This document shows positions 579 through 60,192 of a stretch of DNA of 64,000 nt, one piece after another; the stretch's first letter is position 1, and every line of letters starts with the position of its first letter. The stretch spans positions 124,001 to 188,000 of the forward strand of contig OY759225.1 in assembly GCA_963662175.1 (NCBI GenBank), given 5' to 3'. A program made the position numbers and the translations under genes. Below the pieces are notes generated by a model. It saw only the letters and a program-made list of their open reading frames with translations. It had not been told where the DNA came from and did not search any database. The stretch comes from Aradus depressus (taxonomy: Eukaryota; Arthropoda; Insecta; Hemiptera; Aradidae).

Positions 579-843
579 AATCATTCATTAAAACGATTTT
601 CAGATAAAATTCAGTTATTTAGTAAAACTTATATCTTATTATATGATGGCTAAATATCGAATGATTAGGCCAAATGTGTATTTTTTTTTTTGTTTTTTGA
701 GGGGAACAATTTTTAAAATGGTTGTGGGTTAGAAAATATTTCAAGAAGAAGTTTGCTTTATTTATTTTCACAATAGGTCCCCGGTTCTCAACTTAGAAGT
801 TGCAAACAAACAAACTCGTAGCATGCTCCCTTCGCTCATTCAA
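579..843 (-). repeat. Left copy of a duplicated ~265-bp intron segment
   Basis: This segment is nearly identical, in direct orientation, to 59929-60192. The visible differences are one base in a T run and a few substitutions. Read on the minus strand it follows the donor of the exon at 880-958. The second copy leads into the acceptor of the exon at 59677-59919. It is therefore almost a complete copy of one short intron, not a dispersed transposon. Confidence 0.85.
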
Positions 844-879
844 TTATCTTCCAAAATGGGTGCATAATGTCCAATTTAC

Positions 880-958
880 CTGTATAGCTTTGTCGATGAA
901 GGTCTGTCCATGGTTGTACTGGCTGACCAGGACGGCTAGCACCGTGGCCATGGCGTCT
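880..958 (-). pseudogene. NCAPD2: Condensin I subunit D2 (NCAPD2-like), displaced HEAT-region exon
   Basis: On the minus strand CCCCTCAG is followed by one base and 26 codons, ending CAG before a GTAAAT donor (879-874). The peptide includes AMATVLAVLVSQYNHG and ends IDKAIQ. It matches the N-terminal HEAT region of condensin subunit D2, at the stretch just before the exon at 59677-59919. Both exons meet in phase 0 (CAG/GTAAAT and TTTCAG/TTG). Condensin D2 is the HEAT-repeat subunit of condensin I, which compacts mitotic chromosomes in the nucleus. The exon itself is intact but sits 59 kb out of order, so it cannot be spliced to its neighbour from this locus. Confidence 0.75.
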
Positions 959-2647
959 CTGAGGGGCTTATTAACACACGCCTAATGTATTTATTAAAAT
1001 AACCATTAATTTGTTTCTTAGGCTCCTCTGGGATACTTCTGCCATGTCGCTTCATATCTTCCGGCGTGAGGAGTCTTCGTACTGAGAATATTTCGGGGTG
1101 AAGACACCTCTGGAAGAACTGCCGGAAGAAGGGATTCTTTAATACTCCAATTAGAACGATTCAGCGTTTAAACCTTTTGGAAAATACAAGTTGACGACCT
1201 CGGAAGATATGAAATGAGTTAATATATTTATGTAACATAGGATCTGAGAGGGCGGATAGTGAGTCAGAGAGCAGCCTACCTTCACCTAGATACTCAGCTC
1301 CCACATTCATGTTTCTTCTTTCATTAGGTAGGCGGATAAAATGAACTAACATTTGTTGAGTAATGAAAAAATAAGTATACAAGTCTAAAAATATTATTTA
1401 TTAAATAAATTTATTTATCAAAACCGATGAATAAGAGCGCACTTTACTGGGAAGGTTTCTACTAGGTTTCAAACCAGTGTTGTCAAGAATGACGAAGATG
1501 CAACGAACCGTTTAATCGCAAAAAATATTATGGCAAGTACTTTCAAAGAGACAAATTAATGTTACTACTTCTAATTAAATTACATGATTTTAGAGACATA
1601 CTAAAAGTTGCAATTGCCTTTAAAGTGATGTCACTTTCACCTTCCCCCCCCCCCTTCAATAGTCTTAATCAAGAGTTGTTGAGCTGTTTCTTTTTTTGAA
1701 AGAAAGAAGAGAGAGAAAATCTTTCAAAAGTTTTTAATAAATAATTATAACCAAATTAATAACAAAACATTGCAGTTTCTAATAAAGTGTTTCTTGTTAT
1801 TAATGTTTTCTTGTAAGCACAGCTTCCGGCTAGCCGTAAAGGCGCATCATTGTGCACATCCCCCCAGTAATGGCTGGGAAATCTGAGGGCACCCCATGTC
1901 CATATTTATGCTAGTAAACAAATATAACCAAAAATGTTAAGCTAGCATATAGATTCCAGACAAGAATCCGGGCCCACACTTCCAGACCCAGCCTCGGATT
2001 CACCCACGATTTCAGACCTGGAGAAAGGTTCTGGACAGGGTTTGGAACCCTCAAATGAGGTAGGAGCCAGGAGGAGTTTAGCCTCAATATCACAGATCGG
2101 AGAACCCTCAAAAGTGCAAAAACAGAAGCCAATAATCCACCAGATAAAGAAACTGAAGATTTAGAGGGAGAGCGAAAACTGACATGTGAGTCACAAATGC
2201 GGGGGTTCAAAGACCCTCAAAAGAGAAACAACTGAAGGTATGTTCCAGCAAATAAAGATTTCGAGAGTTTAGCAGGAGAGCAGAAACTTAACGTTTAAGT
2301 TTCGATATAGCGTTTTTAGTCTTTAATTTTAGTCATTAATGCGGAAATAGAGGCTTCAACCAGATAAGATGATATACAAGCATAAGTGAAGGAGACGATT
2401 TGTTCTGGTTGCATTTAACCAAAACAGACAAAGAAGGAATGTAGAATACGGGATCCTTCAAATTCAAACTTCAGCGTTATCGTTTCTCCTTGGATATTTG
2501 GAGTGTATTTTTTCATATATCTTCATTTCGTAACCAAATACAGTTTTAAAGTGAGTTGGAAATGATTTTTGTTTCAATTGAGAAACGTTTCATTTTGATT
2601 TTTTTTTAAATTTTGTATCATTTCTCATTCAATAGCAAGTTGTTTTT
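959..2647. other. Region without a confirmed gene
   Basis: Mostly AT-rich non-coding DNA. On the minus strand about 1170-1015 there is a coding-like stretch containing FFRQFFQRCLHPEIFSV and LLTPEDMKRHG, with no clear donor; I do not recognise it. A second minus-strand open stretch lies at 1161-1310 (includes GRLLSDSLSALSDP). A poly-C run lies at 1645-1654. None of these is strong enough to call. Confidence 0.3.
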
Positions 2648-2796
2648 ATATTTATTTACAGTGCCGGTCGTGACGTGCCAACGTGTAGACGCTGTCGTGT
2701 TGCTTCGGCATTTATCTGTGATTATTTCATTACAGTGCAGTGAAAATCAAACAATAACTAAACTTAAACTATCAAAACTTAAAATTGAGTAAATTC

Positions 2797-4023
2797 ATGA
2801 ATGGGTCCGTGGCCACAAATCATGCAAATTTAATGTCAGATGAAAACACAACGACAAATGCCAATATCAACATGGAAGAATCACCCAATGAAAACTTTAC
2901 ACCCGTAGAATCAAATAGAAAACGGGATCGGGAACACACACCACCAATTTCCCCATTAAAAAAAAAACAAATAAAGTCAAATAGATATTATACTGAACCA
3001 AAACCTTTAGTTACTAAAAACCGTTATGAACCACTCATGAACATTGAACCCGAAAATTCCAAGATTGTCACTAATAAAATTCCCCCCATATTTCTGTGCA
3101 ATGCCAACAATTTTAAGGAAATAATTAAAGATGTCAGTGCAATATGCGAGGACAAATTTATAACCAAATTATGTGGTCACAAAGTAAAGGTTATGTTAAG
3201 TAATCAAGAAGACTTTCGTGCACTCACCTCTTTTTACGACAAAGAAAAAATAGAGTATTACACTTATGCCCTAGACAGAAAAAATGACCTGACTGTCATA
3301 ATTCGTGGAGTTCCGTACAGTTTTAGTGATACGGAAATTAAAGATGAACTGATAAAAAGTTATCCAGTCCTATACGTTCGAAGGATAATAAATAAAGACA
3401 ATTTTCCAACTCCATTGTTGTTGGTTACTCTAGAAAACAACGAAGCGGGTAAAAAAATATTTAATTTAGATAAATTACTCTATTCAATAGTTTCTGTGGA
3501 ACCTCAGAGAAAATCAAAAAATATACCAATGTGCACGAACTGTCAGAGGTACTTTCATACTAAAAATTATTGCAAATTACCCAGCCGATGTGTTAAATGT
3601 TTGGAAAACCATCATTTTTCGAAATGTCCATTAAAAGAAAAAGAGCTGGCACAATGCGTTAATTGTAAGCAAAAGCACGCCGCAAACTACAAAGGTTGTC
3701 CCTACTACATCCAATTAAAAAAAAGCACCCACTCACCTTATGATAACAGCAAAGAAATCCCAACTTCATCTGCAGCACAAAAACGAAGAAGGCCCGAACG
3801 CACTTTTTCACAAGTACATGAAAACTATACTTATGCCTCCTTATTACAAAATAAAACACAAAACACAAATGAAAACAACTCTTCTACCAACATTTCAAAC
3901 TCAACTCCATCTGACCCTCTGAAAAACATCCTGAACCTCCTGTTGGACATACTTCGGCCATGTTTACCAACATTGATAACAGCTCTCACAAGTTACCTCA
4001 CCCAAATGTCAACATCTCCTTAA
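2797..4023 (+). CDS. Jockey-type ORF1 (gag-like RNA-binding protein)
   Basis: An open frame of 408 codons starts at the first ATG (2797). ORF1 proteins of this clade bind element RNA and form the ribonucleoprotein. The N-terminal ~100 residues are polar and probably disordered. The middle holds the conserved block around VIIRGVPYSFSD. Three C-terminal zinc knuckles follow: C-x2-C-x4-H-x4-C at CTNCQRYFHTKNYC, then CVKCLENHHFSKC and CVNCKQKHAANYKGC. This order is typical of Jockey-clade ORF1 with a pre-C2HC domain. The frame has no lesion, in contrast to ORF2 30 bases downstream. Confidence 0.9.
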   Translation: MNGSVATNHANLMSDENTTTNANINMEESPNENFTPVESNRKRDREHTPPISPLKKKQIKSNRYYTEPKPLVTKNRYEPLMNIEPENSKIVTNKIPPIFLCNANNFKEIIKDVSAICEDKFITKLCGHKVKVMLSNQEDFRALTSFYDKEKIEYYTYALDRKNDLTVIIRGVPYSFSDTEIKDELIKSYPVLYVRRIINKDNFPTPLLLVTLENNEAGKKIFNLDKLLYSIVSVEPQRKSKNIPMCTNCQRYFHTKNYCKLPSRCVKCLENHHFSKCPLKEKELAQCVNCKQKHAANYKGCPYYIQLKKSTHSPYDNSKEIPTSSAAQKRRRPERTFSQVHENYTYASLLQNKTQNTNENNSSTNISNSTPSDPLKNILNLLLDILRPCLPTLITALTSYLTQMSTSP

Positions 4024-4053
4024 TCCGATTCCCTCAACTATCGATTTAGAACA

Positions 4054-6728
4054 ATGAACGCACAAAGTCTTCCAACCTTTAGAAACTTAATGTTTTTAAA
4101 CTGGAATGCGAATGGAATAATATCCAAGCGTCAGGAACTGTTAATATTCATGCAAGCAAACAATATAGATGTGGCGTGCATCACCGAAACCCATTTAATC
4201 GAGACTCAAAAATTTACGATGCCTGGATACGCTGTTTACCGACATGATAGGGCTGTGCGTTGGGGAGGCGTCGCTATACTGGTGAAAAAATATTACCAAC
4301 ACAATGAAATAATTTTACCTAAACTAGATGCAATTGAGGCAGTGGCTATCAGCCTGAAGACTCATCCAAAAATTCACATAATAGCTGCTTACAGACCCTC
4401 AAACAAAAAGTTTTTTGAAAGGGATATTTTACTACTGTTTAATCAGCTTCCGAACTTGTTGCTAATTGGTGATCTCAACTGTAAGAATACTGTATGGGGT
4501 TGTCGAAAGTCAAATCCAAATGGGACACGTCTCTATGATTTAATTTCAGACCATGGAATAAATATTTTCACCCCAGAAGAGCCTACTTTTTTTAGACAGG
4601 GCAGGCAACCTGACTTATTGGACATTGTGCTTGCCAAGAATGTAAACTTTCCTATTTATTCTAAAACTGAAACTGCGTTAGGCTCTGATCACTTGCCAGT
4701 CACTATTCAGTTCCGAGCTCCAGTAGAAAAGGTCCCCTTCAAAGAAAAACTCATAACTGGGAAAATTGATTGGGAATGTTTCCAACAACAAGCAAATTCC
4801 CTCTGTAAAATTAAACGTGTACTCCATACTACAGCGGAGATAGTGAAATTTTAGAATTCTTGGAAATTATTAAAAAGTCAATAACTGAGGCAACTGTGAA
4901 GAAAATGCACCCTCCCAGGAAGGCTCACGAAAAAATCCCCCAGCACATACTGGACCTGATTAAAGAAAAAAATAGGATTAGGCGATTATGGCAACGAACC
5001 AGACTTCCCACAGACAAGTATAAATTAAACAATTTAGTGCACAGATTAAAACTCGAATTGGATAACTACAGATTTGAGAAATACCAATGACATCTGGCAG
5101 ATGTTCACCCAGGGGATGGTTCCTTGTGGAAAGCTACCAAGCAGCTGTTAAACAAAACCACTTCCATCCCTAGCTTGAACAGTAATGGTCATATTATATC
5201 TTCCAATTCCGAAAAATGTGAGGCCTTTGCTGCGTATCTGGAGAATATTTTTTCATCGGGGCAAACGCTCGCTCAGGCAGAATCCGAAACGCTCAACTAT
5301 TATGCTGCAAAAATTTCTTCTGCTGAGTTGCCGATAAAATATATAATACCTCAAGAAGTTTTGAATATAATTAAAGAGTTAAAAACTAGGAAAAGCCCAG
5401 GACATGACTTACTCCCCACGATAGTGTTCAAAAAGCTATCCAGTAAACAAATTGCACATCTGGTCTCAATATTTAATGGTTGCTTGAGGCTAGGGTATTT
5501 CCCGCAAACCTGGAAGCAAGCCGAAATTATTCTCTTACATAAACAAGGCAAAAATCCAAGAAATATTGATAGTTATCGCCCTATTAGCCTTCTTCCGATT
5601 CTTGGAAAAATATATGAAAAGTGTCTCAAAACTCGACTACTCGAATATGTAAGTGACGACATCCCGGATTTTCAGTTTGGGTTCAAAAGTAAACATTCCA
5701 CAAGTCACCAACTAACCTGTCTTTCCGAACACATAATTCGCGGCTTTGAGAGCAAAAAACATACCCTCATTGCCTTTCTGGATTTTGAACGTGCCTTTGA
5801 TAGTGTTTGGCATGTAGGACTAAAGGTAAAACTGAAAAAATTAGGACTGCCATTGTACTTATTTAGGACACTCTGTTCTTTTATGGATGATAGGACATTT
5901 TCTGTGCGGATTAACAATGATAGGTCGTCTTACAAGAAGATAACAGGAGGTACGCCACAAGGCTCTGTGCTATCTCCGACTTTGTTCAATGTTTACCTTC
6001 ATGACATTCCCACAAATGACTCGTCAGTAATCGGTATGTTTGCGGATGACACTATTGTTAGCTCACAGGATTCCGATATACATAAAGCCCGAGATGATCT
6101 TCAAGCAGCTCTAAATAATCTACATGTTTACTTTAAAAAGTGGAAAATAAAAATAAATGAAGCAAAATGTCAGGCAAAAGTGTTCACGTTGCGAAGACCA
6201 CAAAGCCCACGTGAGATCACAGTTAACAATAGCCCGGTACCCTGGAACCCACCTGACAGTGCAGTGAAGTATTTGGGAGTGTATCTGGACCAGCGACTAA
6301 CCTGGAACCTGCATATAAATAAGAAACTGACGGAGGCGCATGCCAGATTGGCCATCCTGTTTCCTCTCATCAACAGAAAATCTAAACTAAAGCCTGAATG
6401 TACCCTCCTCCTGTACAGGGCTATTCTTAGACCGCTACTCCTGTACGGTTGTGAGGTGTGGGGTGCAGCGTCAAATTCAAAAATGAAGAGAATACAAACC
6501 TTCCAAAATAGGGTGACGAGGATGGCAGTGGACGCCCCCTGGTTCGTTCGAAACTCCCAGTTACACAGGGAGCTACACCTTGAGACCATAGATGACTTCA
6601 TCAGGAGGAAATTCAGAAAATATCATGATAACTTACCATCAGTTAAAGGTGCTAGAAGGTTTAAGTTAGGGGTTCGTTCCGAAACACTTCGTTTAAAACC
6701 GCGTCTCATTCAGGACATTATATTATGA
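4054..6728 (+). pseudogene. Jockey-type ORF2: AP endonuclease plus reverse transcriptase, inactivated
   Basis: The N-terminus has apurinic-like endonuclease motifs in order: LNWNANGI, ITETHL, LLIGDLNCKN and SDHLPV. The reverse transcriptase follows with YRPISLLPILGKIYEK, FLDFERAFDSVWH, GTPQGSVLSPTLFNVYLHDI and the catalytic FADD box, then the thumb region (KYLGVYLDQRLTW). In active elements the protein nicks the target and primes cDNA synthesis there. Two lesions are visible: a frameshift near 4812-4820 and an in-frame TGA at 5088-5090 just before the reverse transcriptase part. The remaining 534 codons after 5124 are open. Confidence 0.92.
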
Positions 6729-7014
6729 ACTTTTACTATCAGTTTTCCCTCCTTAAATTGTTCATTATGTTACTGCTACTCCAGCCATCTATATGTTTTA
6801 AATATCTGTTCATTTTATACTTTTTTCTGTTTTATTGATTAATTGCTTAAACATACTTTAAGGGGTAAATGTATCCCAAAAGTTATTTTCATTTGCCAAA
6901 TGTTACTAACGCATAGATTTTCAATTATGTAATTATACCATGAAAAACAAATTCATGTTGATCTGGTAAATAAAGAATTTTATAAAAAAAAAAAAAAAAA
7001 AAAATATTTATTTA

Positions 7015-7467
7015 ATTAAAGTTTCATACTAGGTACTTTCCCAGTTATACGAAGTCTAGAAGAAATTATGTAACCGATCAGGAATTCGAAGTTGAGTTTT
7101 CACATTTGAATCCAAAAAAGAAAAACAAAAACTCTAACAACTGCCAATGTAATGAATGTATCGACACAAAATTTAATAAGAGGATTCACAAACCTATATG
7201 TAAGTAAACTATTGAATTTTAGTCACAATAGACGATTGGTTTTGGAGGGAGAGCGAAACCTTAATTGAATAATTCGTGTTCGGGAAGGACATTGCCGATA
7301 ATTCACTGACGACGTTTTTCATTTTTGGTATGAGGGGGGGGGGGGGGGGGGGCATGAAGTTTCTATGAAGAACATGGAACATGAGACCGATTACATAACT
7401 TCCTCTATACCTACTTGGTAAAGCTGGGAAAGTAAAAATGTCTGCTTGACCCATTTTAACGTCGTTA
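7015..7467. other. Spacer with fragments of a dispersed repeat
   Basis: Contains copies of a dispersed motif with TACTTTCCCAGTTATACG and GATTACATAACTTCC, also seen near 17.4, 38.5 and 61.0 kb. There is a run of about 20 G at 7333-7352. No coding region is supported. Confidence 0.5.
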
Positions 7468-8257
7468 AGCCTCGTTTACACGAGGCCAGTTGGGAGGAAA
7501 GTAACTTGGTCCAAGTTACTTCCTCCAAGTAGAGTCTGGCAGTGCAATGGCAAGTTGTGTTCCACACGTGTTTCAGTCAGTTGCAAGTTAAGTGCCAAGT
7601 TGGGTGTGTAAAATGGGAAAGGTGGAAAGGAAGAAGCGCTGTAAAAGGGCAATTAAAGATGTTTCGGGAGTGTTAAGTACTTATCTTGAGGAGGAAATCG
7701 AAAGTTATCTTGAACGGTGTAATAATCAGAAGGTATGGCAAAGAGGATGGATCGGTAGAAGAGCTACCCATGGAGGATCGGCAATGCTGTTGAAAGAACT
7801 TCGTTCGGAAGACCCAAGTGAATACAAGGCGTTACTGAGAATAACGCCAGATTTGTTTGATGAATTGCACTGTCTCATTAGAAATGAGATACAACGGCGT
7901 GATACTGTGATGAGAGAAACCATATGTTCAAAAGTGAAACTTGTCATCTGTTCATTCCACTTGAGATGCGACATCTTACACTTTTTTATTGAATGAAAGT
8001 AAACGTAAACTAAATTCAAATGACGATAAATAGATAAGAATCACACAAATACACAGAACTGATGACACTTGCCAAATGATGCTGGCAGACTGACCAAGTA
8101 GTTGTTTACACTGAGCAGGTACAGTTGCCCTTGTCAGGCAGGTTACTTGCTCGCAGTGGAGGGGGAAGGCAAGCTGCCCCAAAATAGAACCCCGGCCAAT
8201 TAACTTGCCTTGCCTGACAAGTTGCACGCCAAGTTGACTTGGCCACCAAACGAGGCT
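7468..8257 (+). mobile_element. Non-autonomous PIF/Harbinger DNA transposon
   Basis: Terminal inverted repeats begin AGCCTCGTTT at both ends, and the element is flanked by a TTA target duplication (7465-7467 and 8258-8260), the usual size and sequence for PIF/Harbinger. The left end also folds on itself (GCCTCG...CGAGGC, 7469-7486). Subterminal AAGTTACTT and CAAGTTGACTTGG motifs recur at both ends. The 790-bp length is far below an autonomous element, and the transposase inside is cut short. Confidence 0.82.
7613..7996 (+). pseudogene. PIF/Harbinger transposase, N-terminal fragment (HARBI1-like)
   Basis: 127 codons start at ATG 7613. The segment from WIGRRATHGGSAML through LLKELRSEDPSEYKALLRI and TPDLFDELHCLI to MRETICSKVKL matches the N-terminal part of HARBI1-like transposases. 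It ends where the family usually continues into the LATG region, so the DDE catalytic domain is absent. The terminal peptide CDILHFFIE is probably out-of-family sequence joined by an internal deletion. It cannot encode an active transposase. It lies wholly inside the terminal repeats. Confidence 0.8.
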
Positions 8258-8260
8258 TTA

Positions 8261-9300
8261 GGCAACATTTAGGAATTGAAGAGTAGATGAATAGTTCAAG
8301 GCTCCCTATTCAAAAGGAATAGGGAAATCCTAAAAAAAAATTTAATTTCGCCGGAGCTTCCTAATTATTGGACAAGCACATGATAGGGAAACGGAGAACA
8401 AAAATAAAGGTGAACAAAATAATAATATTATAATACTGAGAACAATGTAAAAAATATATTTAGGTATATGTATATTCAATGACGCAAAAAAAGAATAGAT
8501 CTTGTTAATCAAAACTAAACTAAAAATTAACTTGATTTTAAAAATAAATTCTTATCAAAACATGTAAAAAAAAATTGGGTAAATAATTATTATATATTAT
8601 CGGACATATCGGATCTATAATAAAAACAAACAGAATATCAATTCTTAAAACAAAAAGAAAGGTATCTATATATAAATTTATATTGTTAAAAAATAATCAC
8701 TGAAAGTAATATAATAAAAAATATAATCGACTGTGGACTTGGTACATCGAAAGTAGTTCCGTAAGAAACAATGTTTGAATACCCCATATGTAATTAAAAC
8801 TGAAAATATTAACGTGAGCTCACGTTAAAAATGATAAATTTCCTTGTGTTGACAACAACAGAGTGGTGAAAATAGTGAAATTAAAGTTCAAACAAAAATG
8901 ATGATCTTCGAAGGATGATGGAACCCGAAGAACGGTGAGATCAGAAGAACGAAGCTCGTTGGACGAACGAAGACCAAGCTGAACGGGGACACTGGCAGAT
9001 AGCAAGTTCAAAAAAAGGAGTTCGAGAAAACCAAAAAAAAAGAAGGAGGGCCGTAATAAAATACGGCAATAAATAAAAACTTTAAACAGGTCCACTCACA
9101 GGCAACTACAATCAGTAACAAAAATTTTCGGACAATTTATAATTTTGTTTTTCTTTTGCAGTTACACATAGTTATATGGCAAAATATTTAATTCAAGCAA
9201 AGTTTTAAATTTCGAGATCATCAATCATTTCAAAACTCCGTAAAACAATTAATTAAACATTTACAGCTAATAGGAACTTTTGCATTAATAATTGAAGACA
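8261..9300. other. AT-rich region without a gene; perfect 20-bp palindrome
   Basis: No supported gene. A perfect palindrome TTAACGTGAGCTCACGTTAA lies at 8809-8828. Two Tc1-like end motifs follow: AAAATTTTCGGACA near 9120 and AAAATTTTCTGGACACC near 9317, which probably belong to the transposon relic that follows. Confidence 0.5.
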
Positions 9301-9474
9301 AGAAATTCACGTAACAAAATTTTCTGGACACCTGTTGTTTGTTTTGTAAACAAATGCGACTCTGATCATGATCTTTAATCCCTTCTCAACCAACCGCTAA
9401 TACCGAACAAATGAAGTGTGTTTATATACTTCTATTACTGCATTCAGTAGTTATTTGTATTTCCTGCTGTCAAG

Positions 9475-9911
9475 ATGGGTCGAACATCTTTTGAAGTTCA
9501 ACAGATAATAATTTTTAATTATGAAAAAGGATTAAGTGTCCGCAAAATCGGTGGTATGGTAGGCTGGAGTAAAAGCATCGTAGCCGATGTAATTCGAAGG
9601 TATAAGCACGAGGATCGGATAGACTTGAAATCTTCCTCTGGCCGTCCAAGAGTATTAAACGACCGAGAAAGGTGTAGCGTTGTCCGGAAAATTAAAAACA
9701 AGCCCTCGAGGAGTGCACCTCAGATCGTCGCCGAGGTATACAGAGAAACGGGAAAGAAAGTTCACCCACAAAATGTTCGAAGAATTCTAAAAGAAGCAGG
9801 ATATAATGGGAGAGTACCAAAAACCGTTTGTGAGTGAAAAAAATATAAAAAAAAGATTGAGCTTCGCAAAAGAGTTCCAGAATCATTCAGAAATTTTTTG
9901 GACTAATGTCA
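9475..9911 (+). pseudogene. Tc1-family transposase, N-terminal DNA-binding fragment
   Basis: From ATG 9475 the peptide shows the paired-like double helix-turn-helix of Tc1 transposases: IIIFNYEKGLSVRKIGG, IVADVIRRYKHE, the GRP hinge motif SSGRPRVLND, then APQIVAEVYRETGKKVHPQ and VRRILKEAGYNG. A frameshift in the A-rich stretch near 9820-9830 moves the reading to the frame continuing through NIKKRLSFAKEF to IFWTNVI at 9911. The frame is then cut by unrelated repeat sequence just before the first catalytic aspartate region. The whole DDE domain is missing. Confidence 0.85.
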
Positions 9912-50418: not shown

Positions 50419-51062
50419 TGTTCAGTTATTTATTTATTTTTGTCGTATACTTCTAATCCTTTCTTGAACCTATCATCTTACTATACTTACTTCAATCTAC
50501 ATTTTCTTCATTTCTTTCATCGCCTATCTGGTATCATTATTTAACTTTTTTTTTTTTTTTCCTAATCATTATCAGTGTCACTCATTGTTATTTAAAATTT
50601 TTACAGTAAAAGGATGTAGGACTGCCCGTTGTTATTATTTCTAAGCCTCCCGATTTGAATCCATTTATTTAGTTATTGTTGTTTCGTTCGCTCCCCGTTT
50701 CAAACTGACCCCCTCCACCTGGCTCCTCCCCTCTCTCGTTCCTCCGCCGCGCCCTCCCCCCTCTACTTCATACTATCTCAATCTGTTCTACCTCTCGGCG
50801 TGCATTCATTTCATCCGTTATTCTTTCTTAGTTTTCTATTATAAGCCCTTTTTGAATTTTGTTTTTTGTTATTCTCCTTTTTCCTTCTTTACTTTACACA
50901 TATGTAAGAGGAAGTCGATGCCTAGCCTTGGTCTATTCATAAATATTTATATAATTTTTCTTGATGTTTTGTTGTCTTCTAATTTCTCTCCTTTACCTCC
51001 CTTCCTCACCCCTCCCTCTACTTTGTCTGTGTCCTTCCTCATCACCTCTCATGACATATAAT
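50419..51062. other. Pyrimidine-rich leader, probably 5' part of the next LINE
   Basis: TC-rich plus strand resembling the base composition of the LINE that follows. No ORF1 recognised. Confidence 0.4.
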
Positions 51063-53517
51063 AGCCTTCAATGTTGCCATGTTAATGCCCAGTCCCTGCC
51101 AGCCCATCACGATGAGTTCTCCGATTTCCTCCACTCAAATAGCTTCCATATCATCGGTATTTCTGAGAGCTGGCTCGAACCCTGGATCCCCTCCTCCTCC
51201 GTCTCTCTTCCTGACCACTATCTCTTCAGAAACGACCGGCTAGACAGACCTGGCCAGATTCCACCAAACTCCTTTATGGAGAAGTTTACCGACCTCCTAG
51301 AGTCCCTTTTGACCCCACCTTTGAGTCAGCTCTCCTCCGTCTGATTCCCCTCTATAGTTGCATCCCTGATCTCCGGTGACTTCAACTCCGACCTCCTGTC
51401 TCCAGCAGCTCCCAACTCCAAGTATCTCCTGGACCTCTGCTATTCTTTAAACCTTTTCATAGTTCCCTACGCCCCGACTCATCATACCCCTACTTCTCAC
51501 TCCTGGTTGGATCTCCACCTGGCTGACTCCCAACAGAAGATTAGTTCCTCCGCCCAACAGCCAGTTCCCTTCCTTTCTGTTCACGACCTTATCCAAATCT
51601 CCTACGACATACCATCTCCTCACCTTACTCCTAGATCTTTACTCCTCCGAAACCTGAAGTCCTTAACCTTCGAGACGCTCCAAGAGGACCTTGACGCAGC
51701 GGACTGGCAAGCTATCTTTGATCTGGCCTCAATCGACGAGAAGGTGAATACTTTCAACCAGATCCTCCTGAAGCTGCTCGACAAGCACGCTCCTCTGAAG
51801 ACGAGGCAGCTCAGACGATCCCCGGCCCCATAGATAACCCCAGAGATCAGGGAAATCATTAAGGAACGGGACTCTGTCCGAAGGAGGTTCTACCGATCCA
51901 AGTTGGACGTCGACTACTCTTCCTTCAAAGTCCTGAGGAATCGTGCCCAGTCGCTGATCAGGGCGGCTAAGTCAAAGTTCCTTCTGAACCTGATAGCGGA
52001 GGCACCTAACGCCAAGTCAAGATGGGCAGCTCTTCGGAAGCTCTCGTTAGGTTCCCCCGAAAACCCTCCTTCTCCTTCAACCTTCTCTCCCGACACACTT
52101 AATTCCTTTTTTGTCTCCCGTCCTATTCTTCCACTAGCGTCTCCAGCTGAGATTACATCCCCCCAGCCCTTCGATTCAAATAATTTTTTCTTTTCATATA
52201 TTTACCCTGACACCCTCCTAAAGATCATCCTTAATAGTAGCTCTAATGCCCTTGGCCCTGACGACATCCCGCTCCTCTTCCTTAAAACTTGCTTACCAGT
52301 CATACTCCCAGTCCTCTTACATATTTATAATTTCTCCCTTCAAAACTCCGTCTTCCCTTCCGCCTGGAAAGAACCATTTGTACTTCCTCTCAACAAAGTC
52401 CCTATTCCTGAAGCTCCTAAAGACTTTCGCCCTATCTCCCTTCTGTGTTCCACATCCAAACCTTTAGAGCGTATAGTTCAATCCCAAATCTCAGATTTCC
52501 TTCTTACCAACAAACTCCTCGACCCTTTGCAATCTGGTTTCCGACCCGGTTATGGGACTCAATCTGCTTTACTGAAACTAACAGAAGACTTCCGACAGGC
52601 CATTGACGCTAGACAACTTACTCTGCTAGTACTGTTCGACTTTTCCAAAGCCTTTGACTGCGTGGACCACTCCACCCTCCTCTCCAAGCTGGCCAGTCTC
52701 CCTCTCTCCAATAATGTCCTCCTCTGGCTTCAGTCCTACCTTGCAGATCGTCCCCAGTCCGTCAAATTCCCCAACTCTCCCGCCTCATCCTTGCTTCCTC
52801 TCCACTCAGGAGTTCCCCAAGGATCCTCTCTTTCCCCGCTCCTATTCTCCCTTTTCCTCTTGGATCTTCCTCCACACATAAAATTCTGTAAATACCACCT
52901 CTACGCGGATGATCTGCAGATTTATTTATCCTTTCACCCCTCCAGTTTTCCTACCGCATACTCGCAAATATCTGATGACATCAATTCCATATCCTCCTGG
53001 GCCAAACAGAACAAACTCCTCCTTAATCCTCACAAGACTCAAGCGATTATATTAGGTAACAAAAAACTTCTCAATAACTTAACTGACCCCCCTCTCTTAA
53101 CTCTGGACAACACCAACATTAACTATTCTAGCAGAGTAAAAAACCTGAGTATCATCCTCGACCAATCCCTTTCCTGGAAAGACCACGTATCCTATATTTC
53201 CCGTAAATCGTTCCAATCCCTTGCACAATTTAAACGTTCCCGTCACTCTCTTTCACAAAACTCCCGGAAGCTCCTCGTATCCTCCCTTGTTTTCCCCCAT
53301 TTTGACTACGGGTGCCTGGTTCATCCCCTCCTATCGCTCCTCGGCCTTCCACAATTCATTCCTTGTCCCTACAAAAACCATTCCTTTTGTTCAAGACCTA
53401 ATCCAACTTCACTTCACGGAACTCCATTCTGAACTGTATACCCATCCCAATCCATTCGCTCAGCGCTTGCCCTCATCCCGACAACCCTCCATGTTGCCTA
53501 AGAAGACGCTGGCCTAG
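51063..53517 (+). pseudogene. CR1-like LINE ORF2: endonuclease remnant plus reverse transcriptase
   Basis: One frame runs from CHVNAQSLPAHHDEF and IIGISESWLEP (endonuclease motifs 1-2) to about 53432. In-frame stops lie at 51342-51344 and 51831-51833. Part of the endonuclease after RLDRPG is deleted; ISGDFNSDL and HSWLDL remain. Reverse transcriptase motifs: DFRPISLLCSTSKPLERI, LFDFSKAFDCVDH, GVPQGSSLSPLLFSLFLLDL, HLYADDLQIYLS. The last stretch shifts frame near 53300-53430. The strongly pyrimidine-rich coding strand differs from the Jockey copies. No ORF1 and no poly(A) tail are seen. Confidence 0.88.
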
Positions 53518-53674
53518 CGATCTTCTGAGAACTATCTATAGAGATGCCAACACTGGCAGGCTTCTCCCTTTATTTTACATTTTATTTTATTTTCTGTTCA
53601 CTTCAAACCAATCATTCTATATTTCGTAGATAAGAAAAAAAAAAATATTTATTTTCGAAAAGAAAAGAAGCAAC

Positions 53675-53974
53675 CTTGATGTGAGGCTTGACGGGGGGGC
53701 GCCAGTGAAGACCTGTGTCTGTTGGAGCCGCTCTCCGAAAGATGGTATCGTCTCCACCAGGATCCCCAGTCCCTTCTCTGTGTAGGTCAGCTGGCTCAAA
53801 CAGAAGGACATCTTCATCCTGGGACTCTCGAAGTCGACTACACAGTCTGCTGACCAGCAGCTCGTTCTGTCCCTCTTTACCAATCATTCATCCTGGGACT
53901 CTCGAAGTCGACTACACAGTCTGCTGACCAGCAGCTCGTTCTGTCCCTCTTTACCAATCAGACTCAGTATAAAT
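53675..53974 (-). pseudogene. NCAPD2: Condensin D2 (NCAPD2-like), C-terminal HEAT exon with internal duplication
   Basis: On the minus strand TTTGTTGTCAG precedes an exon coding FILSLIGKEGQNELLVS and RLCSRLRESQDE, then later MSFCLSQLTYTEKGLGI and SFGERL. These parallel the last HEAT repeats of condensin D2. A 74-bp segment is tandemly duplicated (GGTAAAGAGGGACAGAACGA begins both copies) and brings an in-frame TGA at the joint. The second copy is then read in another frame. The exon joins the exon at 58390 in compatible phase. The end at 53675 (CAAG/GTTGCT) is a weak donor. Confidence 0.75.
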
Positions 53975-54058
53975 CTGACAACAAACAAGACATTTAATAT
54001 TCATGATTACAAAAACAACCAGTCACCTGATGTAGCAACGACGACGGAAGCAGAGAGG

Positions 54059-55204
54059 AATAGATAATTAAAATACACAATTTCTTTGTCAAACTTCACT
54101 ATATATTCTCAAATACTCAACTAGTTTCGCCGTGTTAAGGCATTATCAAGAGTCACTTACAAACTGACAGAATTGGTTGACAGGATAGAAGGTACAGTTA
54201 TGGAGGGGGTTTTTAGGTAATGACGGGGAATCCCTTGTTTTTGTTACTCTATACATTCCAATAAACAGATATTTACAAGATAATAATAAATATAAAATAA
54301 AAAGAAAGAATATATATATATATAAAATCTAATAAAGCGAATCTAACAGTAAAGTGTTGGTATTTATATAGGTATGACTCAGGAATTATATAAATGTAAA
54401 ATATAATAAATATTAAAGTGAATAAAAACAAATACATAGAATTTAAAGACAAATTAAAACATCAAATGAAAATATAGTATTCTCTGAATGTCAGTTGGCA
54501 AAAACATTTCCACAATCATCAGACTCTTAGCTACTTAAATTTTAAATTAAGAAGGGGGGAATGGTTCAGTTCTATTTGTTCATTTAGCATTACAATATCG
54601 TTATTTTTGTTCAGTTTATTTATTTCTACCGCTTCCAGTAAATTCAAAAGTGGACCTTTTTGGCAGATATGTATTATATTTGGTTTGTGTTGTGTGTCTA
54701 TGGTATGTCCTGTCTCTGTGAGATGTTGGTGAAATGAGGAAGTGTTGCAGTTTGTATTTCTTGTGTGTTCCCTGTATCTATTCTTAAAGGATCTCCCTGT
54801 CTATCCCGCGTACTTTAATATTTTACATTTATATAATTCAAGAGTCATACCTATATAAATACCAACACTTTACTGTTAGATTCGCTTTATTAGATTTTTT
54901 ATATATATATATTCTTTCTTTTTATTTTATATTTATTATTATCTTGTAAATATCTGTTTATTGGAATGTATAGAGTAACAAAAACAAGGGATTCCCCGTC
55001 ATTACCTTAAAACCCCCTCCATAACTGTACCTTCTATCCTGTCAACCAATTCTGTCAGTTTGTAAGTGACTCTTGATAATGCCTTAACACGGCGAAACTA
55101 GTTGAGTATTTGAGAATATATAGTGAAGTTTGACAAAGGAATTGTGTATTTTAATTATCTATTCCTAGAATGGAGCTTCACAAAATAAATCTGGAAACCA
55201 TAAA
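54059..55204 (-). mobile_element. Penelope-like element relic with long inverted arms
   Basis: Left arm (54056-54404) and right arm (about 54820-55166) are inverted copies of ~347 bp with few differences. Between and into the right arm lies a GIY-YIG endonuclease remnant on the minus strand. Each arm holds hammerhead-ribozyme-like core motifs, TTGATAATGCC and GGCGAAAC (minus at about 54123-54155, plus at about 55068-55100). A 13-bp repeat GGAAGCAGAGAGG at 54046-54058 and 55205-55217 may be the target duplication. The reverse transcriptase is missing. Confidence 0.75.
54531..54839 (-). pseudogene. GIY-YIG endonuclease domain of the Penelope-like element
   Basis: The minus-strand frame carries CKILKYAG, a TAG stop (54803-54801), TGRSFKNRYREH, then SSFHQHLTETGHTI and LLNLLEAVEINKLNK, ending at TAG 54533-54531. 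This order (Y-x-G-x-T-x-R-x-F-x-x-R-x-x-E-H, then G-H and L-E-x-x-E-I) is the Penelope-specific GIY-YIG endonuclease, which nicks the target in active elements. The only visible lesion in this piece is the nonsense codon in the core motif. Confidence 0.8.
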
Positions 55205-55217
55205 TTATTTGGAAGCA

Positions 55218-55413
55218 GAGAGGTATAGTGTAGAGTCGTGAGATCGATACCAGCCTAGGCCCTTAGGCTCTTTATCTGGGAGCCGTCCTATGTGTTGTCA
55301 GACCCCTCGACTAATTAAACCTAGTTAATCATCGGCAACGTACTTCCCCAGCGCGAATTAACTAAATTTTCACTCTTCCTCTGACTCCAATCTATCGATT
55401 TGTTTGAAGTTTT
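55218..55413. other. Spacer, possible SINE fragment
   Basis: TATAGTGTAGAGTCGTGAGA with GATCGATACCAGCC resembles a tRNA-like head, followed by GGCTCTTTATCTGGGAGCCG. Unconfirmed. Confidence 0.3.
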
Positions 55414-58070
55414 CTGACACCTCTACTATAGCTTGGCAACGTAGATGATAAAGTGCGAGTGCGCAACTCTCCCCGCGCATCTTATACCTCCATCTCTCCT
55501 CTCTGTACATCTCTACTATAGCTTGGCAACGTAGATGATAAAGCGCGAGTGCGCAACTCTCCCCGCGCCTCTTATACCTCCATCTCTCCTCTCTGTACAT
55601 CTCTACTATAGCTTGGCAACGTAGATGATAAAGTGCGAGTGCACAACTCTCCCCGCGCCTCTTATACCTCCATCTCTCCTCACTGTACATCTCTACTATA
55701 GCTTGGCAACGTAGATGATAAAGTGCGAGTGCGCAACTCTCCCCGCGCCTCTTATACCTCCATCTCTCCTCACTGCACATCTCTACTATAGCTTGGCAAC
55801 GTAGATGATAAAGCGCGAGTGCGCAACTCTCCCCGCGCCTCTTATACCTCCATCTCTCCTCTCTGTACATCTCTACTATAGCTTGGCAACGTAGATGATA
55901 AAGCGCGAGTGCGCAACTCTCCCCGCGCATCTTATACCTCCATCTCTCCTCTCTGTACATCTCTACTATAGCTTGGCAACGTAGATGATAAAGTGCGAGT
56001 GCGCAACTCTCCCCGCGCATCTTATACCTCCATCTCTCCTCTCTGTACATCTCTACTATAGTTTGGCAACGTAGATGATAAAGCGCGAGTGCACAACTCT
56101 CCCCGCGCATCTCTCCTCTCTGTACATCTCTCCCACAGCTTGGCTACGTAGATGATAAAGTGCGAGTGCGCAACTCTCCCCGCGCATCTTATACCTCCAT
56201 CTCAACGAAGATGATAAAGCGCGAGTGCACAACTCTCCCCGCGCCTCTTATACCTCCATCTCTCCTCTCTGTACATCTCTACTATAGCTTGGCAACGTAG
56301 ATGATAAAGTGCGAGTGCGCAACTCTCCCCGCGCCTCTTATACCTCCATCTCTCCTCACTGCACATCTCTACTATAGCTTGGCAACGTAGATGATAAAGC
56401 GCGAGTGCGCAACTCTCCCCGCGCCTCTTATACCTCCATCTCTCCTCTCTGTACATCTCTACTATAGCTTGGCAACGTAGATGATAAAGCGCGAGTGCGC
56501 AACTCTCCCCGCGCATCTTATACCTGCATCTCTCCTCTCTGTACATCTCTACTATAGCTTGGCAACGTAGATGATAAAGTGCGAGTGCTCAACTCTCCCC
56601 GCGCATCTTATACCTCCATCTCTCCTCTCTGTACATCTCTACTATAGTTTGGCAACGTAGATGATAAAGCGCGAGTGCACAACTCTCCCCGCGCATCTCT
56701 CCTCTCTGTACATCTCTCCCACAGCTTGGCTACGTAGATGATAAAGTGCGAGTGCGCAACTCTCCCCGCGCATCTTATACCTCCATCTCAACGAAGATGA
56801 TAAAGTGCGAGTGCACAACTCTCCCCGCGCCTCCTATACCTCCATCACTCCTCTCTGTACATCTCTACTATAGCTTGGCAACGTAGATGATAAAGCGCGA
56901 GTGCGCAACTCTCCCCGCGCGTCATATACCTCCATCTCTCCTCACTGCACACCTCTACTATAGCTTGGCAACGTAGATGATAAAGCGCGAGTGCGCAACT
57001 CTCCCCGCGCATCTTATACCTCCATCTCTCCTCTCTGTACATCTCTACTATAGCTTGGCAACGTAGATGATAAAGTGCGAGTGCGCAACTCTCCCCGCGC
57101 ATCTTATACCTCCATCTCTCCTCTCTGTACATCTCTACTATAGTTTGGCAACGTAGATGATAAAGCGCGAGTGCACAACTCTCCCCGCGCATCTTATACC
57201 TCCATCTCTCCTCTCTGTACATCTCTACTATAGTTTGGCAATGTAGATGATAAAGCGCGAGTGCACAACTCTCCCCGCGCATCTCTCCTCTCTGTACATC
57301 TCTCCCACAGCTTGGCTACGTAGATGATAAAGTGCGAGTGCGCAACTCTCCCCGCGCATCTTATACCTCCATCTCAACGTAGATGATAAAGTGCGAGTGC
57401 ACAACTCTCCCCGCGCCTCTTATACCTCCATCTCTCCTCTCTGTACATCTCTACTATAGCTTGGCAACGTAGATGATAAAGCGCGAGTGCACAACTCTCC
57501 CCGCGCATCTTATACCTTCATCTCTCCTCTCTGTAGACCTCTACTATAGCTTGGCAACGTAGATGATAAAGCACGAGTACGCAACTCTCCCGGCGCATCT
57601 TATACCTGCATCTCTCCTCTCTGTACACCTCTACTGTAGCTTGGCAACGTAGATGATAAAGCGCGAGTGCGCAACTCTCCCCGCGCGTCATATACCTCCA
57701 TCTCTCCTCTGTGTACACCTCTACTATAGCTTGGCAACGTAGATGATAAAGCGCGAGTGCGCAACTCTCCCCGCGCGTCATATACCTCCATCTCTCCTCA
57801 CTGCACACCTCTACTATAGCTTGGCAACGTAGATGATAAAGCGCGAGTGCGCAACTCTCCCCGCGCGTCATATACCTCCATCTCTCCTCTGTGTACACCT
57901 CTACTATAGCTTGGCAACGTAGATGATAAAGCGCGAGTGCGCAACTCTCCCCGCGCGTCATATACCTCCATCTCTCCTCACTGCACACCTCTACTATAGC
58001 TTGGCAACGTAGATGATAAAGCGGGAGTGCGCAACTCTCCCCGCGCATCTTGTACCTCCATCTCTCCTCT
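55414..58070. repeat. 90-bp satellite with a 586-bp higher-order period
   Basis: About 29 copies of a 90-bp unit containing CTATAGCTTGGCAACGTAGA and GAGTGCGCAACTCTCCCCGC. Because 90 is divisible by three, the minus strand is open over long runs and would encode 30-residue repeats (for example GESCALALYHLRCQ, AIVEMYREERWRYK). A shortened variant with CATCTCTCCCACAGCTTGG starts at 56101, 56687 and 57273, exactly 586 bp apart. The peptide is probably a by-product, as no start context or splice frame supports translation. Confidence 0.95.
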
Positions 58071-58389
58071 CTGCTACCTCCACGAGCCTATAGGCGGTAA
58101 ATGAAAGCTCTCACTTATTATCTAAATGCAGGTTGGGGATTTCTGTAAAAAAAAAGTTTAATAAAGCTGTTATAACCAGTATTTCATATAATGGTGTCTT
58201 AATTAACCATTGTTATGATATAAGAAAGGTAGATGCGTCATTCCTCCCTGTACCGGCTCGTGGCACCTCCTCTAGTATAGGTTATAGATATAGTTTTTAG
58301 TACTTTTACTTTAATAAAATATGTTAAATAGATTTATTTAAAATTAGATATGGAACCAGAAACTCCTTGATTCTTGTATCCAGACTTAC
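58071..58389. other. Intron of the condensin locus
   Basis: AT-rich, with the donor of the exon at 58390-58527 at its right end. Nothing else recognised. Confidence 0.5.
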
Positions 58390-58527
58390 TTGAGAATCCT
58401 GGAGAACTGGTCAAGGGGAGAGGCTCCTTCCTCTGAGCACTGGACAGACGGGAGATGATATCCGGCATCACGTTGTACAGGGTGTTCCCCTTCTGAGAGA
58501 GGTTAATCAGAAGATTTCGAACTCGCT
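58390..58527 (-). pseudogene. NCAPD2: Condensin D2 (NCAPD2-like), C-terminal HEAT exon with frameshift
   Basis: Minus-strand acceptor GTTGTGCAG, then VRNLLINLSQKGNTLYNVM and PDIISRLS, a signature stretch of condensin D2 near its C-terminus. After RLS the matching frame shifts and continues with EEGASPLDQFSRILK to donor AA/GTAAGT at 58389. That ending phase fits the exon at 53974. The indel near 58430-58445 is a coding lesion unless it is a sequencing error. In the protein family several hundred residues separate this exon from the one at 59677; they are absent here. Confidence 0.82.
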
Positions 58528-58619
58528 CTGCACAACATCATCAAAAAACTATGAATGTCCGAAAACATTGTTGCTTTTGATACAATGGAAAAACTAATAA
58601 AATAACTATAAATTGTCCA

Positions 58620-58700
58620 ATTCCACAGAAAAAAAATAAAATATATATATAGTGTACCGGTTTCGCCTTATGCCATCATCAATGTACTGATGAACTTTGT
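58620..58700 (-). ncRNA. Hammerhead-ribozyme-like motif of a Penelope terminal repeat
   Basis: On the minus strand TTGATGATGGCATAAGGCGA and GAAACCGGTAC follow each other: the CUGAUGA-like core (first base changed), a short stem II and the GAAA core. An ATATAT run follows. Such motifs are typical of Penelope-like element terminal repeats. Cleavage activity is not implied, since a core base differs. Confidence 0.5.
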
Positions 58701-58861
58701 AAAGTTCCATAGTAACATTTGTTTGCTAAGTTGGCATATTTATACAATTCTGATATTACCTGAGGCAGTGACTGTCGTCCTTGTAACCTCACCAGAATCT
58801 CAACTTCCGATATCACACCAAATAATAACAATACTGCACCATACAAATATAGGCACACTTT

Positions 58862-59094
58862 AAATAAGAAGGCGCCAGTAGGAAAAAGGTAGCGTGGTTG
58901 CCTACTGTGCTCAAGATGATAGGATTCAAAACCCGGTAGGACTCATAGGTTTTTTTTATCTGGGAAGTAAAAAAAAACTGAGCTTCGAATGGGACATTAA
59001 GCGATGGTCCCGAGTCTGTACGACGTCGTTGCTCTGGTAGTAGGCGATGTGACCTCGTAGTTAAAGCCCGGGCATGAACAATAATAACTAACCA
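58862..59094 (+). mobile_element. Candidate tRNA-derived SINE
   Basis: A head with GGTAGCGTGGTTGCC (A-box-like) and GGATTCAAAACCC (B-box-like) 25-30 bases apart, as in tRNA-derived SINEs. The body carries GGGACATTAAGCGATGGTCC and ends GCCCGGGCATGAACAATAAT with a TAACTAAC-type tail. Body fragments are scattered through the window (9.95, 10.6, 12.8, 14.9-16.2, 23.8-25.3 kb), so this may be the fullest copy of the dominant local repeat. Confidence 0.5.
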
Positions 59095-59676
59095 TTATGC
59101 TGTAGAAACCAAAAGAGTTCATTATTCATGGAATGCTACAAGTATACAATTTAAAGTATTCTTAAATTTAAAAAATACTGTTACATATAGAATGTTTATA
59201 CTAATAGAATTATTGTTCGAAAACTAGATTTTTATACACTTTACTCTCCTTTATGTATCGGTACAAGTATATCAAATTTATTCATGTTTTGAACGTTTAA
59301 AAAAAAATTATTGTACATACAAGAATAAAGAAAAACTATTCTCAACACTGTGATTTCAAAACTCCTTTGAAAAAAAAATTAACTCACTCGATTTTAATCC
59401 GAACATCCTAATTCTTTTTCTTTCATGAAAACTTGCATTTCCGAATTATTGTTATTGTACCCTTTCCCTGGATTGCATCAAAAATACAGATTTTATATAA
59501 TCTAATCAAAAACATCTCTAAAACAACTATTTGTCTACAAACGTGGTGAGGCGTGATATATCTCTACTACCTAGCTTGTGTCCCTAGTAGTGAAGACTGA
59601 ACAGAGATGAGCTGCAACGCTGCACCCTAACAGCCATGTTTCACCGGCTAGTCTCTATCCTGGGAAGCCAACTCAC
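59095..59676. other. Intron of the condensin locus, no exon seen
   Basis: The missing middle of the condensin gene should be coded between 58527 and 59677, but no HEAT-like exon is present in this interval. Confidence 0.6.
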
Positions 59677-59919
59677 CTCATGGGTAAGACATCTGGAGAG
59701 GGTGTTGACGGAGGACAAGAGGAGCTCCGGATGGCTCTCAGCTATGGCAGTGATGAGAGCAGCCCCTGCCTTCCCCAGTCCTGGCACCTCTTCCTCCCGA
59801 ACAGCCTCCGACAGTTCTCGAAGTAGCTTGGTCAGGAGGGTCGTACACTTGTACTCCACCGCCAGCAGCAACACTGTGCACGTAATAGCAGACACTGTGT
59901 GCTCGTACTGTTTCATCAA
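59677..59919 (-). pseudogene. NCAPD2: Condensin D2 (NCAPD2-like), N-terminal HEAT exon
   Basis: An 81-codon exon between acceptor ACATTTCAG and donor GAG/GTGAGT, phase 0 at both ends. Peptide landmarks: LMKQYEHTVSAITCTV, CTTLLTKLLRELSEAV, GKAGAALITAIAESHPELLL and NTLSRCLTHE. These align with the part of condensin D2 directly after the stretch coded at 880-958. The exon has no lesion. Upstream on the minus strand lies the intron copy 59929-60192, but the preceding exon is missing. Confidence 0.85.
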
Positions 59920-59928
59920 CTGAAATGT

Positions 59929-60192
59929 AATCATTCATTAAAACGATTTTCAGATAAAATTCAGTTATTTAGTAAAACTTATATCTTATTATATGATGGC
60001 TAAATATCGAATGATTAGGCCAAATTTGTATTTTTTTTTTGTTTTTTGAGGGGAACAATTTTTAAAATGGTTGTGGGTTAGAAAATATTTCAAGAAGAAG
60101 TTTGCTTTATTTATTTTCACAATAGGTCCCCGGTTCTCAACTTAGAAGTTGCAAACAAACAAACTCGTAGCATGCTCCCTTCGCTCATTCAA
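59929..60192 (-). repeat. Right copy of the duplicated intron segment
   Basis: Direct partner of 579-843. Identity stops at 60192 after CTTCGCTCATTCAA, 37 bases short of where the donor of the 880-958 exon would be. Confidence 0.85.

Follow-up and report, generated by a model that had tools for sequence, protein, structure and literature searches.

Displaced condensin D2 exons in Aradus depressus as probable debris within a subtelomeric macrosatellite

Condensin D2 exons and a repeated intron

The window analysed here is a stretch of 64,000 nucleotides (C11:124001-188000) within the 698-Mb genome of Aradus depressus. Two pieces of a condensin D2 (NCAPD2) gene stand in it far apart, each beside a copy of the same intron. 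Was a single gene torn open at this locus, as an earlier note had proposed, or does the arrangement belong to something larger? On the minus strand, 880-958 (in exon n) translates as DAMATVLAVLVSQYNHGQTFIDKAIQ and 59677-59919 (exon n+1) as LMKQYEH...CLTHE. Joined in phase 0, the pieces match condensin subunit 1 (Ycs4; PDB 6qj3, residues 235-334) in an alignment that crosses the join and has a weak score (E = 0.011), and splice signals are present as a donor GTAAAT at 879 and an acceptor TTTCAG before 59919. In Pfam, the joined piece of 107 residues matched no condensin family; its best hit was RIX1, below the cut-off (E = 8.4e-4), followed by two weaker matches. When 115 residues were searched against a protein database, 62 candidates emerged, none with E <= 0.001, and Rfam at gathering scores gave 0 matches in the window. 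Comparison of 300-1100 with 59600-60400 by blastn produced a single same-strand match with 266 of 269 columns identical (E = 3e-139), and elsewhere in the window the 265-bp intron repeat gave only matches of 19-20 bases. These data bear out the earlier observations that the intron is present twice and that the two CAP-D2 pieces join in phase 0 while lying in reversed order; the copy ends, about 36 bases beyond the donor and 8-9 short of the acceptor, had also been placed correctly. A transposon identity of the 265-bp repeat was ruled out, as it is an ordinary intron of a condensin D2 gene on C7 (94.9% over 273 columns).

In that C7 gene (L061), the same two pieces flank one intron. All four matches reported for the middle exons fell on C7 (best E = 2.2e-9), the window being without these exons, and the 5′ part of the gene was likewise identified at the C7 locus. 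The left piece is homologous to the C7 gene as far as about 969 and no further, so that 880-958 is part of a truncated exon rather than the whole exon it had been taken for. Relative to the C7 gene, the repeat lacks some 60 bases from the 5′ portion of exon n together with about 270 bp of intron; because this sequence is missing, the CAG before 958 is not the real acceptor. Further pieces of the same gene lie on the minus strand at 58531-58439 and 53982-53701, as does an upstream exon in the array at 61.4-63.9 kb. A 90-bp array gave a PH_NF1 match (E = 3.8e-11) that resulted from adding up weak repeated hits, each too weak to pass by itself, and it was set aside. A functional condensin D2 gene would have all exons and a complete reading frame; the window copy is missing a stretch of about 800 residues and carries a stop and an apparent frame shift.

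Exon n differs from the C7 gene by two synonymous and no nonsynonymous changes, and for exons n and n+1 combined 5 of 5 changes are synonymous. Taken from these sequences, such synonymous-only divergence is not what one would expect of a purely neutral pseudogene. Variants among the array copies (11 full copies of exon n+1 and 15 of exon n) are, however, mostly nonsynonymous (five nonsynonymous and two synonymous changes).

Table 1. Features of the window. Positions refer to the window; Form A denotes units that have exons n and n+1 in normal order on either side of one intron.
Feature	Position	Strand	Evidence or remark
Macrosatellite unit, nearly complete	1..64000	.	Base 1 recurrence at C11:188518; window-matching starts/ends of other contigs
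Target-site duplication ATCAAAACCGATGAAT, 16 bp, left copy	566..581	+	Unfilled site with one target copy at L009 and L083; diverged at L061
Intron R, left copy	579..843	-	blastn match to right copy
835-bp insert: intron R / truncated exon n / upstream intron copy	582..1416	-	Contiguous ~844-bp Form A match, 98.3-99.8%
Condensin D2 exon n, truncated; includes 880-958	880..969	-	97.8% to C7 gene L061 3633-3722
Target-site duplication, 16 bp, right copy	1417..1432	+	Direct repeat of 566-581
C-terminal condensin D2 piece	53701..53982	-	Internal tandem duplication of ~74 bp gives in-frame stop
C-terminal condensin D2 exon	58393..58531	-	Apparent frame shift, judged by eye
Condensin D2 exon n+1	59677..59919	-	3 synonymous, 0 nonsynonymous differences from C7 gene
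Intron R, right copy, native position next to exon n+1	59929..60192	-	blastn match to left copy
Deletion junction, ~1,510 bp relative to Form A	60192..60193	.	L003 1765 vs 3275; identical junction on C9 (L062) and C6 (L064)
LINE reverse transcriptase remnant	60206..60608	-	RVT_1 E 1.3e-4 for 60206-60364, under Pfam cut-off
149-bp tandem array on upstream condensin D2 exon (DRLWEPP)	61361..63907	-	C7 gene has two such units

A repeat unit shared among chromosome ends

The first base of the window is found again at C11:188518, with 99.8% identity over 983 bp, which indicates head-to-tail repetition; the unit of this tandem subtelomeric repeat measures 64,517 bp on C11, and the window spans almost one unit. 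On C1, the nine spacings between ten pairs of exon n copies range from 63,281 to 80,197 bp. The duplication that brings the stop at 53701-53982 is missing from the preceding unit (L012), where this stretch is single, and the defect is therefore not universal among units. The unit also carries several retrotransposons besides the broken condensin gene.

Perfect matches to a 33-base stretch of the left exon number 371 in the genome (control, 0). Among 100 listed occurrences, 94 sit no more than 735 kb from a contig end, those at right ends in plus orientation (18 of 18) and those at left ends in minus orientation (74 of 76); the other six are internal, at 1.9 and 45.7 Mb on C7 and 16.4 Mb on C8. 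Strikingly, the array is seen at 21 of the 24 ends of C1-C12, the calls at the right ends of C3 and C10 depending solely on 2-kb matches. The stretches read at the right ends of C5, C7, and C9, and at both ends of C13 and C14, held no array. Telomere repeats were seen at the start of C1 only, among the contig ends read, and there the array lies internal to the telomere, separated by roughly 12-42 kb of other sequence from the last telomere repeats that were sampled. With gaps left out of the count, identity between copies from different chromosomes is 99.3-99.9%. The repeat thus combines a kilobase-scale head-to-tail unit, a location near chromosome ends, and homogenisation between chromosomes, as a subtelomeric macrosatellite does. 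For FISH, (TTAGGGATGG)n is the motif named as a probe alongside one for the macrosatellite unit.

Instead of a single gene torn open, the locus is a unit of a subtelomeric array with copies on many chromosomes. We conclude with high confidence that the window represents a single unit of a subtelomeric macrosatellite arranged in tandem, and that this unit holds a degenerate copy of the NCAPD2 locus. Its two misplaced pieces look like debris of an old condensin gene copy, the apparently working gene lying elsewhere.

Rather than being passenger DNA, such an array might itself be functional at chromosome ends, perhaps by serving as a platform for the end-confined meiotic kinetic activity of true bugs, a proposal that we consider very unlikely. 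The relevant passages of PMC3833732 call meiosis in true bugs telokinetic and treat the factors responsible for it as unsolved. Occurrence at 21 of 24 ends of C1-C12, homogenisation between chromosomes, and a telomere motif that points to true bugs would all suit an end role. Against it, 3 of the 24 ends, together with C13 and C14, gave no array, and the same passages suggest that euchromatic ends are more often active at metaphase I than ends with repetitive DNA, with the reverse at metaphase II (PMC3833732). Equally unlikely is the more specific idea that a shared 65-kb macrosatellite acts in meiosis by marking or building the kinetic sites confined to the ends of chromosomes that are otherwise holocentric, and that this candidate role keeps it uniform between chromosomes.

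Different causes of the two junctions

The Form A arrangement, with an intron of about 310 bp, was found at 11 of the 14 right-type sites read, a proportion skewed towards intact sites by the fetching of most of the 14 through an exon n match. One of these sites (L012) lies 1.2 kb left of the window, in the neighbouring unit. The check suggested earlier, for an intact copy in which a single intron separates the two exons, came out positive at these 11 sites and in the C7 gene. The remaining three sites (the window on C11, one on C6, and one on C9) share a 1.5-kb deletion that forms the right junction; exon n was lost with it, as was the 3′ portion of a LINE. The LINE reverse transcriptase reading extends onward in the Form A locus L003; no Pfam match was found for 60495-60608. 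Junction subtypes are reported for loci read individually.

At the left junction, flanking 16-bp direct repeats, which the earlier note had not mentioned, and a single-copy unfilled site were both found, the marks of an insertion with target-site duplication. The 835-bp insert is absent at L009 and L083, with unfilled sites on C11 and C12. Unfilled and filled targets differ in two bases (CGTAGAAT vs CGATGAAT), and L007 has the exact 16-mer on one flank only. When 551-600 was compared with shuffles of 860-5860, none of 300 reached 16 bp, and the best, 14 bp, arose once. No poly-A is present at the 582 end of the insert, and an A/T-rich stretch lies at the 1416 end. The left junction also occurs in four other loci (two on C6, two on C7) and in the next unit of C11. 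An initial model, in which two copies of the gene had decayed and each had received its own transposon insertions, was dropped once the unfilled site and the Form A loci appeared. Because the right junction is a deletion and the left a separate insertion with target duplication, the two differ in cause. The earlier idea of a tandem duplication with later deletions thus captured the tandem array and the right junction, but not the separate origin of the left piece or the subtelomeric position of the array on many chromosomes, neither of which is visible from the window.

These junctions also bear on misassembly, in which the assembler would have built them by way of the 265-bp intron that both have in common. 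Given how repetitive the array is, and how many contigs end inside it, errors in the order and number of units are possible. Yet both junctions are repeated base for base on separate contigs, the left on C6 and C7 and the right on C6 and C9, and a target duplication with unfilled counterparts is not expected as an assembler's invention; a local misassembly is not supported and is very improbable. The same slight probability attaches to integration, by homologous recombination at the intron, of a circular DNA carrying gene pieces: the direct-repeat order is consistent with it and circles could have seeded arrays at other ends, but it is not needed, given that deletion and target-duplicated insertion separately account for the flanks of the intron copies, that L012 has normal exon order, and that the left site exists unfilled.

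Proposed origin and comparison with known systems

For the macrosatellite, we propose that part of the NCAPD2 locus was transferred to the end of a chromosome, where the relocated copy may then have lost its middle exons and gathered retrotransposons. The unit would have multiplied through unequal crossing-over, and units may have been swapped among non-homologous ends via ectopic recombination or conversion. Such exchange would hold units about 99.5% alike despite the 5% intron divergence between array units and the C7 gene. A Form A unit would have been the source of the copied 835-bp insertion, whether the copying was done by retrotransposon machinery, the outer insert edge lying at an A/T-rich LINE tail, or by templated repair. 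The condensin pieces would be passengers of the macrosatellite, and we regard this explanation as a whole as very probably correct.

Apparent gene breakage thereby becomes an example of chromosome-end construction in an insect that, as a true bug, is expected to have holocentric chromosomes: very long, near-identical tandem units are common to many of the large ones. Since deletion, insertion, and unfilled subtypes are mixed across chromosomes, they offer natural markers for exchange between non-homologous ends. Automatic annotation might call hundreds of non-gene condensin fragments in the array.

Human D4Z4 and the yeast Y′ elements are subtelomeric macrosatellites or terminal repeats with units of about 3-7 kb. 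Like them, the present repeats lie near ends, are oriented with respect to the telomere, are common to non-homologous chromosomes, and have units with genes or their remnants; unlike them, they are spaced at 63-80 kb, and the unit comprises several retrotransposons and a broken condensin gene. The left junction resembles templated or retrotransposon-mediated insertions in its copied 835-bp segment, 16-bp duplication, and unfilled sites, and departs from that class in an insert end without a clear poly-A tail. In Triatoma rubrofasciata (Triatominae), the pertinent passages of PMC12604443 describe heterochromatic blocks at chromosome ends and propose subtelomeric ectopic recombination for their spread. 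The terminal satellites described there share with the A. depressus array a true-bug host, a chromosome-end location, and a proposed spread by ectopic recombination; if the short number in a name such as TrubSat001-166 (PMC12604443) is taken as unit length, the unit here is about 400 times longer than 166 bp.

A tandem unit concentrated at contig ends

In an assembly of 697,738,979 bases and 74 contigs, the window (C11:124001-188000) belongs to a tandem array: its first base is found again at C11:188,518 (99.8% over 983 bp), giving a period of 64,517 bp. The contig C1 holds ten pairs, with nine spacings of 63,281-80,197 bp between them. By its structure, the array is a subtelomeric macrosatellite. 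The C11 array was still recognizable by matching at 220 kb; none of the seven samples taken between 260 and 600 kb matched it. Non-LTR and LTR-type retroelement open readings form part of the unit (see table).

A 380-bp query returned 557 candidates in the genome; 40 of the 557 were scored, and all 40 had 100% identity. An exact 33-mer from the left exon occurs 371 times genome-wide (120 forward, 251 reverse; reversed control, 0); if each unit holds two exact copies, like those at the C1 left end, this would correspond by our estimate to ~185 units or ~12 Mb. Of the first 100 of these 371 places, 94 are no more than 735 kb from a contig end, and the remaining six are at C7:1,917,805, C7:45,703,102, and C8:16.38-16.42 Mb (four). 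Right-end places among these 100 are on the plus strand in 18 of 18 cases and left-end places on the minus strand in 74 of 76, an orientation that points those copies toward the contig end. The exceptions, C9:452,285 and 458,003, both reversed, are the innermost places listed in the C9 left-end array. The internal copies at C8:16383680-16421877, far from contig ends, are inverted (two plus, then two minus) and ~29 kb apart.

On C1-C12, all 12 left ends and 9 of the 12 right ends yielded array sequence. This total of 21/24 includes ends whose array sequence lies some tens of kilobases inward (both of C1, the left of C5 and C12) and the right ends of C3 and C10, based on 2-kb matches at 97.5-99.7%. 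The right ends of C5, C7, and C9 gave no array match in their final 2-10 kb, nor in a single 800-bp sample farther in. There was likewise no array match in the first 3 kb and last 2 kb of C14, and the same spans of C13 held only repeats 79-88% alike and no array; over C1-C14, the array was thus found at 21 of 28 ends. Eight of 10 small contigs sampled at their start match the unit; C15 and C16 are without a match.

The first 7,927 bp of C1 are CCTAACCATC repeats (100% match), the complement of the telomere motif TTAGGGATGG. Further telomere repeats occur in C1 samples at 20.5-24, 26-28, 36-38, and 48.0-48.8 kb, interrupted by sequence with reverse-transcriptase readings. Within these repeats, two loci, L010 (C1:7928-10000) and L038 (C1:31001-33000), carry a non-LTR retrotransposon that starts with poly-T and has long reverse-transcriptase readings (L010: RVT_1, E 6.4e-36), which we take to resemble the moth telomere-specific TRAS/SART elements. 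C1 samples at 52 and 60 kb matched neither telomere nor window; the earliest array copy among the matches listed is at 90.3 kb, and a 740-742 kb sample still matched. The TTAGGGATGG motif is FISH-confirmed in two Cimex species and predicted for other true bugs (PMC11354137).

Features of the window, with the evidence for each
Feature	Position	Strand	Evidence or description
Possible last exon of another gene	202-289	+	SSNSSLTARVQHLEGLLFTLGLQRQNSY, then stop; read by eye
Intron, left copy	579-843		
Left condensin piece (truncated exon n)	880-969	-	human probe, E 0.046
Retroelement open readings	2758-6728, 32010-35184, 51345-53432		non-LTR and LTR-type
Minisatellite array	48782-50561		74-bp spacing, ~21 copies
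C-terminal condensin D2 piece	53982-53701	-	human probe, E 3.9e-7
Inverted repeat	54056-54404 and 54818-55166		349-bp arms, 99% complementary
Minisatellite array	55327-58194		90-bp spacing, ~28 copies
C-terminal condensin D2 piece	58531-58439	-	human probe, E 2.6e-5
Exon n+1	59677-59919	-	human condensin D2 probe, E 4.2e-6
Intron, right copy	59929-60192		
149-bp tandem array holding upstream condensin D2 exon	61.4-63.9 kb (61361-63907)	-	units individually weak, E 0.5 and worse; ~15 units, each coding exon plus part of its intron

Condensin D2 pieces and the two junctions

The window was searched with a human condensin D2 probe, and every match was on the minus strand. An earlier note had held that two pieces, exon n and exon n+1, code adjacent condensin parts joined in phase 0; the translations agree, and a weak condensin subunit 1 match spans the join (PDB 6qj3, E 0.011). 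Its claim that the intervening intron is present twice is borne out, the copies being on the same strand and identical in 266 of 269 columns. Judged from sequence, the condensin D2 copy in the window is not a working gene, because an apparent frame shift and a ~74-bp duplication with a stop affect its C-terminal pieces, and the middle of the protein (~800 residues on the human probe) has no convincing match within the window. The duplicated stretch is present once only in L012, the preceding C11 unit.

Both exons with one intron, the arrangement for which the earlier note proposed a search, do occur. At 11 of the 14 right-type sites read (those at the exon n+1 locus), exon n+1, one ~310-bp intron, and exon n stand in normal order, a share inflated because most sites were fetched through their match to exon n. 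These Form A loci are L001, L003, L005, L008, L009, L012, L033, L034, L035 (twice), and L063; in L012, exon n lies at C11:122,755-122,844, ~1.2 kb left of the window. Upstream of exon n, L003 contains a LINE with a reverse-transcriptase reading, presumably jockey-like. The right locus of the window equals Form A minus ~1,510 bp, spanning the intron to inside the LINE. Of five fetched loci tested for this deletion junction, L062 (C9) and L064 (C6) share it identically (25/25 bases), L063 has the Form A arrangement, and neither L065 nor L066 extends to the site. Another deletion subtype appears in L012 at 8995 (C11:122995), as a jump from window 1120 to 63753. The exon n+1 region is partly duplicated with a ~215-bp period in L009 (2460-3107), L033, L034, L035, and the C7 gene (L061 2872-3054).

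At the left locus, two copies of ATCAAAACCGATGAAT flank an 835-bp segment copied from Form A. Its inner junction recurs in L002, L004, L006, L007, and the next C11 unit; the 16-mer is exact on both flanks in three of the four named loci and on one flank only in L007. L009 and L083 lack the insert and have a single target copy with two bases different, and the diverged C7 locus L061 is also without it. None of 300 shuffles reached 16 bases (best, 14), and the junction repeat is unlikely to have arisen by chance. The insertion may reflect a LINE-mediated event or templated repair.

A likely source gene on C7

A search with the middle of condensin D2 matched the genome four times, always within C7:46,154,100-46,179,876 (best E 2.2e-9), and two of these matches have a stop within the open stretch around the match. 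In L061 (C7:46,178,001-46,188,000), an upstream exon occurs twice at 149-bp spacing; the 149-bp exon repeat of the window has two units here (L061 5153-5538). Exon n extends 5' through SLVANCCYRVYENPEMSQANM and is followed by one ~300-bp intron and exon n+1; array copies of exon n end at about window 969, without ~60 bases of this 5' part. Exons n and n+1 of the window differ from the C7 gene by five synonymous and zero nonsynonymous codon differences, and the intron by 12 mismatches and two gaps in 273 columns. Among array copies (11 full exon n+1, 15 exon n; L062-L064 left out of the count), there are five nonsynonymous and two synonymous variants. Regions upstream of the C7 gene match window 5-574 and 1450-1732 at 78-92%. 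The C7 locus, read in part, is the likely source gene.

Spread of the array and comparison with other true bugs

With gap columns uncounted, left-type copies (those of the inserted-copy locus) are 99.55-99.88% alike in 10/10 pairs; for Form A copies the figure is 99.31-99.92% in 36/36 pairs, those with L035 compared on ~1,300 bases. The units are tandem and nearly identical, and their subtypes are common to different chromosomes. The array would have spread by unequal exchange within arrays and by ectopic exchange between chromosome ends. No comparable macrosatellite unit was found for true bugs in a limited search of the literature, and we make no claim of its being unpublished. For Triatoma satellites, ectopic recombination in subtelomeres has been proposed (PMC12604443). 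In true-bug meiosis, kinetic activity is confined to the chromosome ends, and the responsible factors are called unsolved (PMC3833732); it is tempting to speculate that the array is tied to this end-restricted activity.
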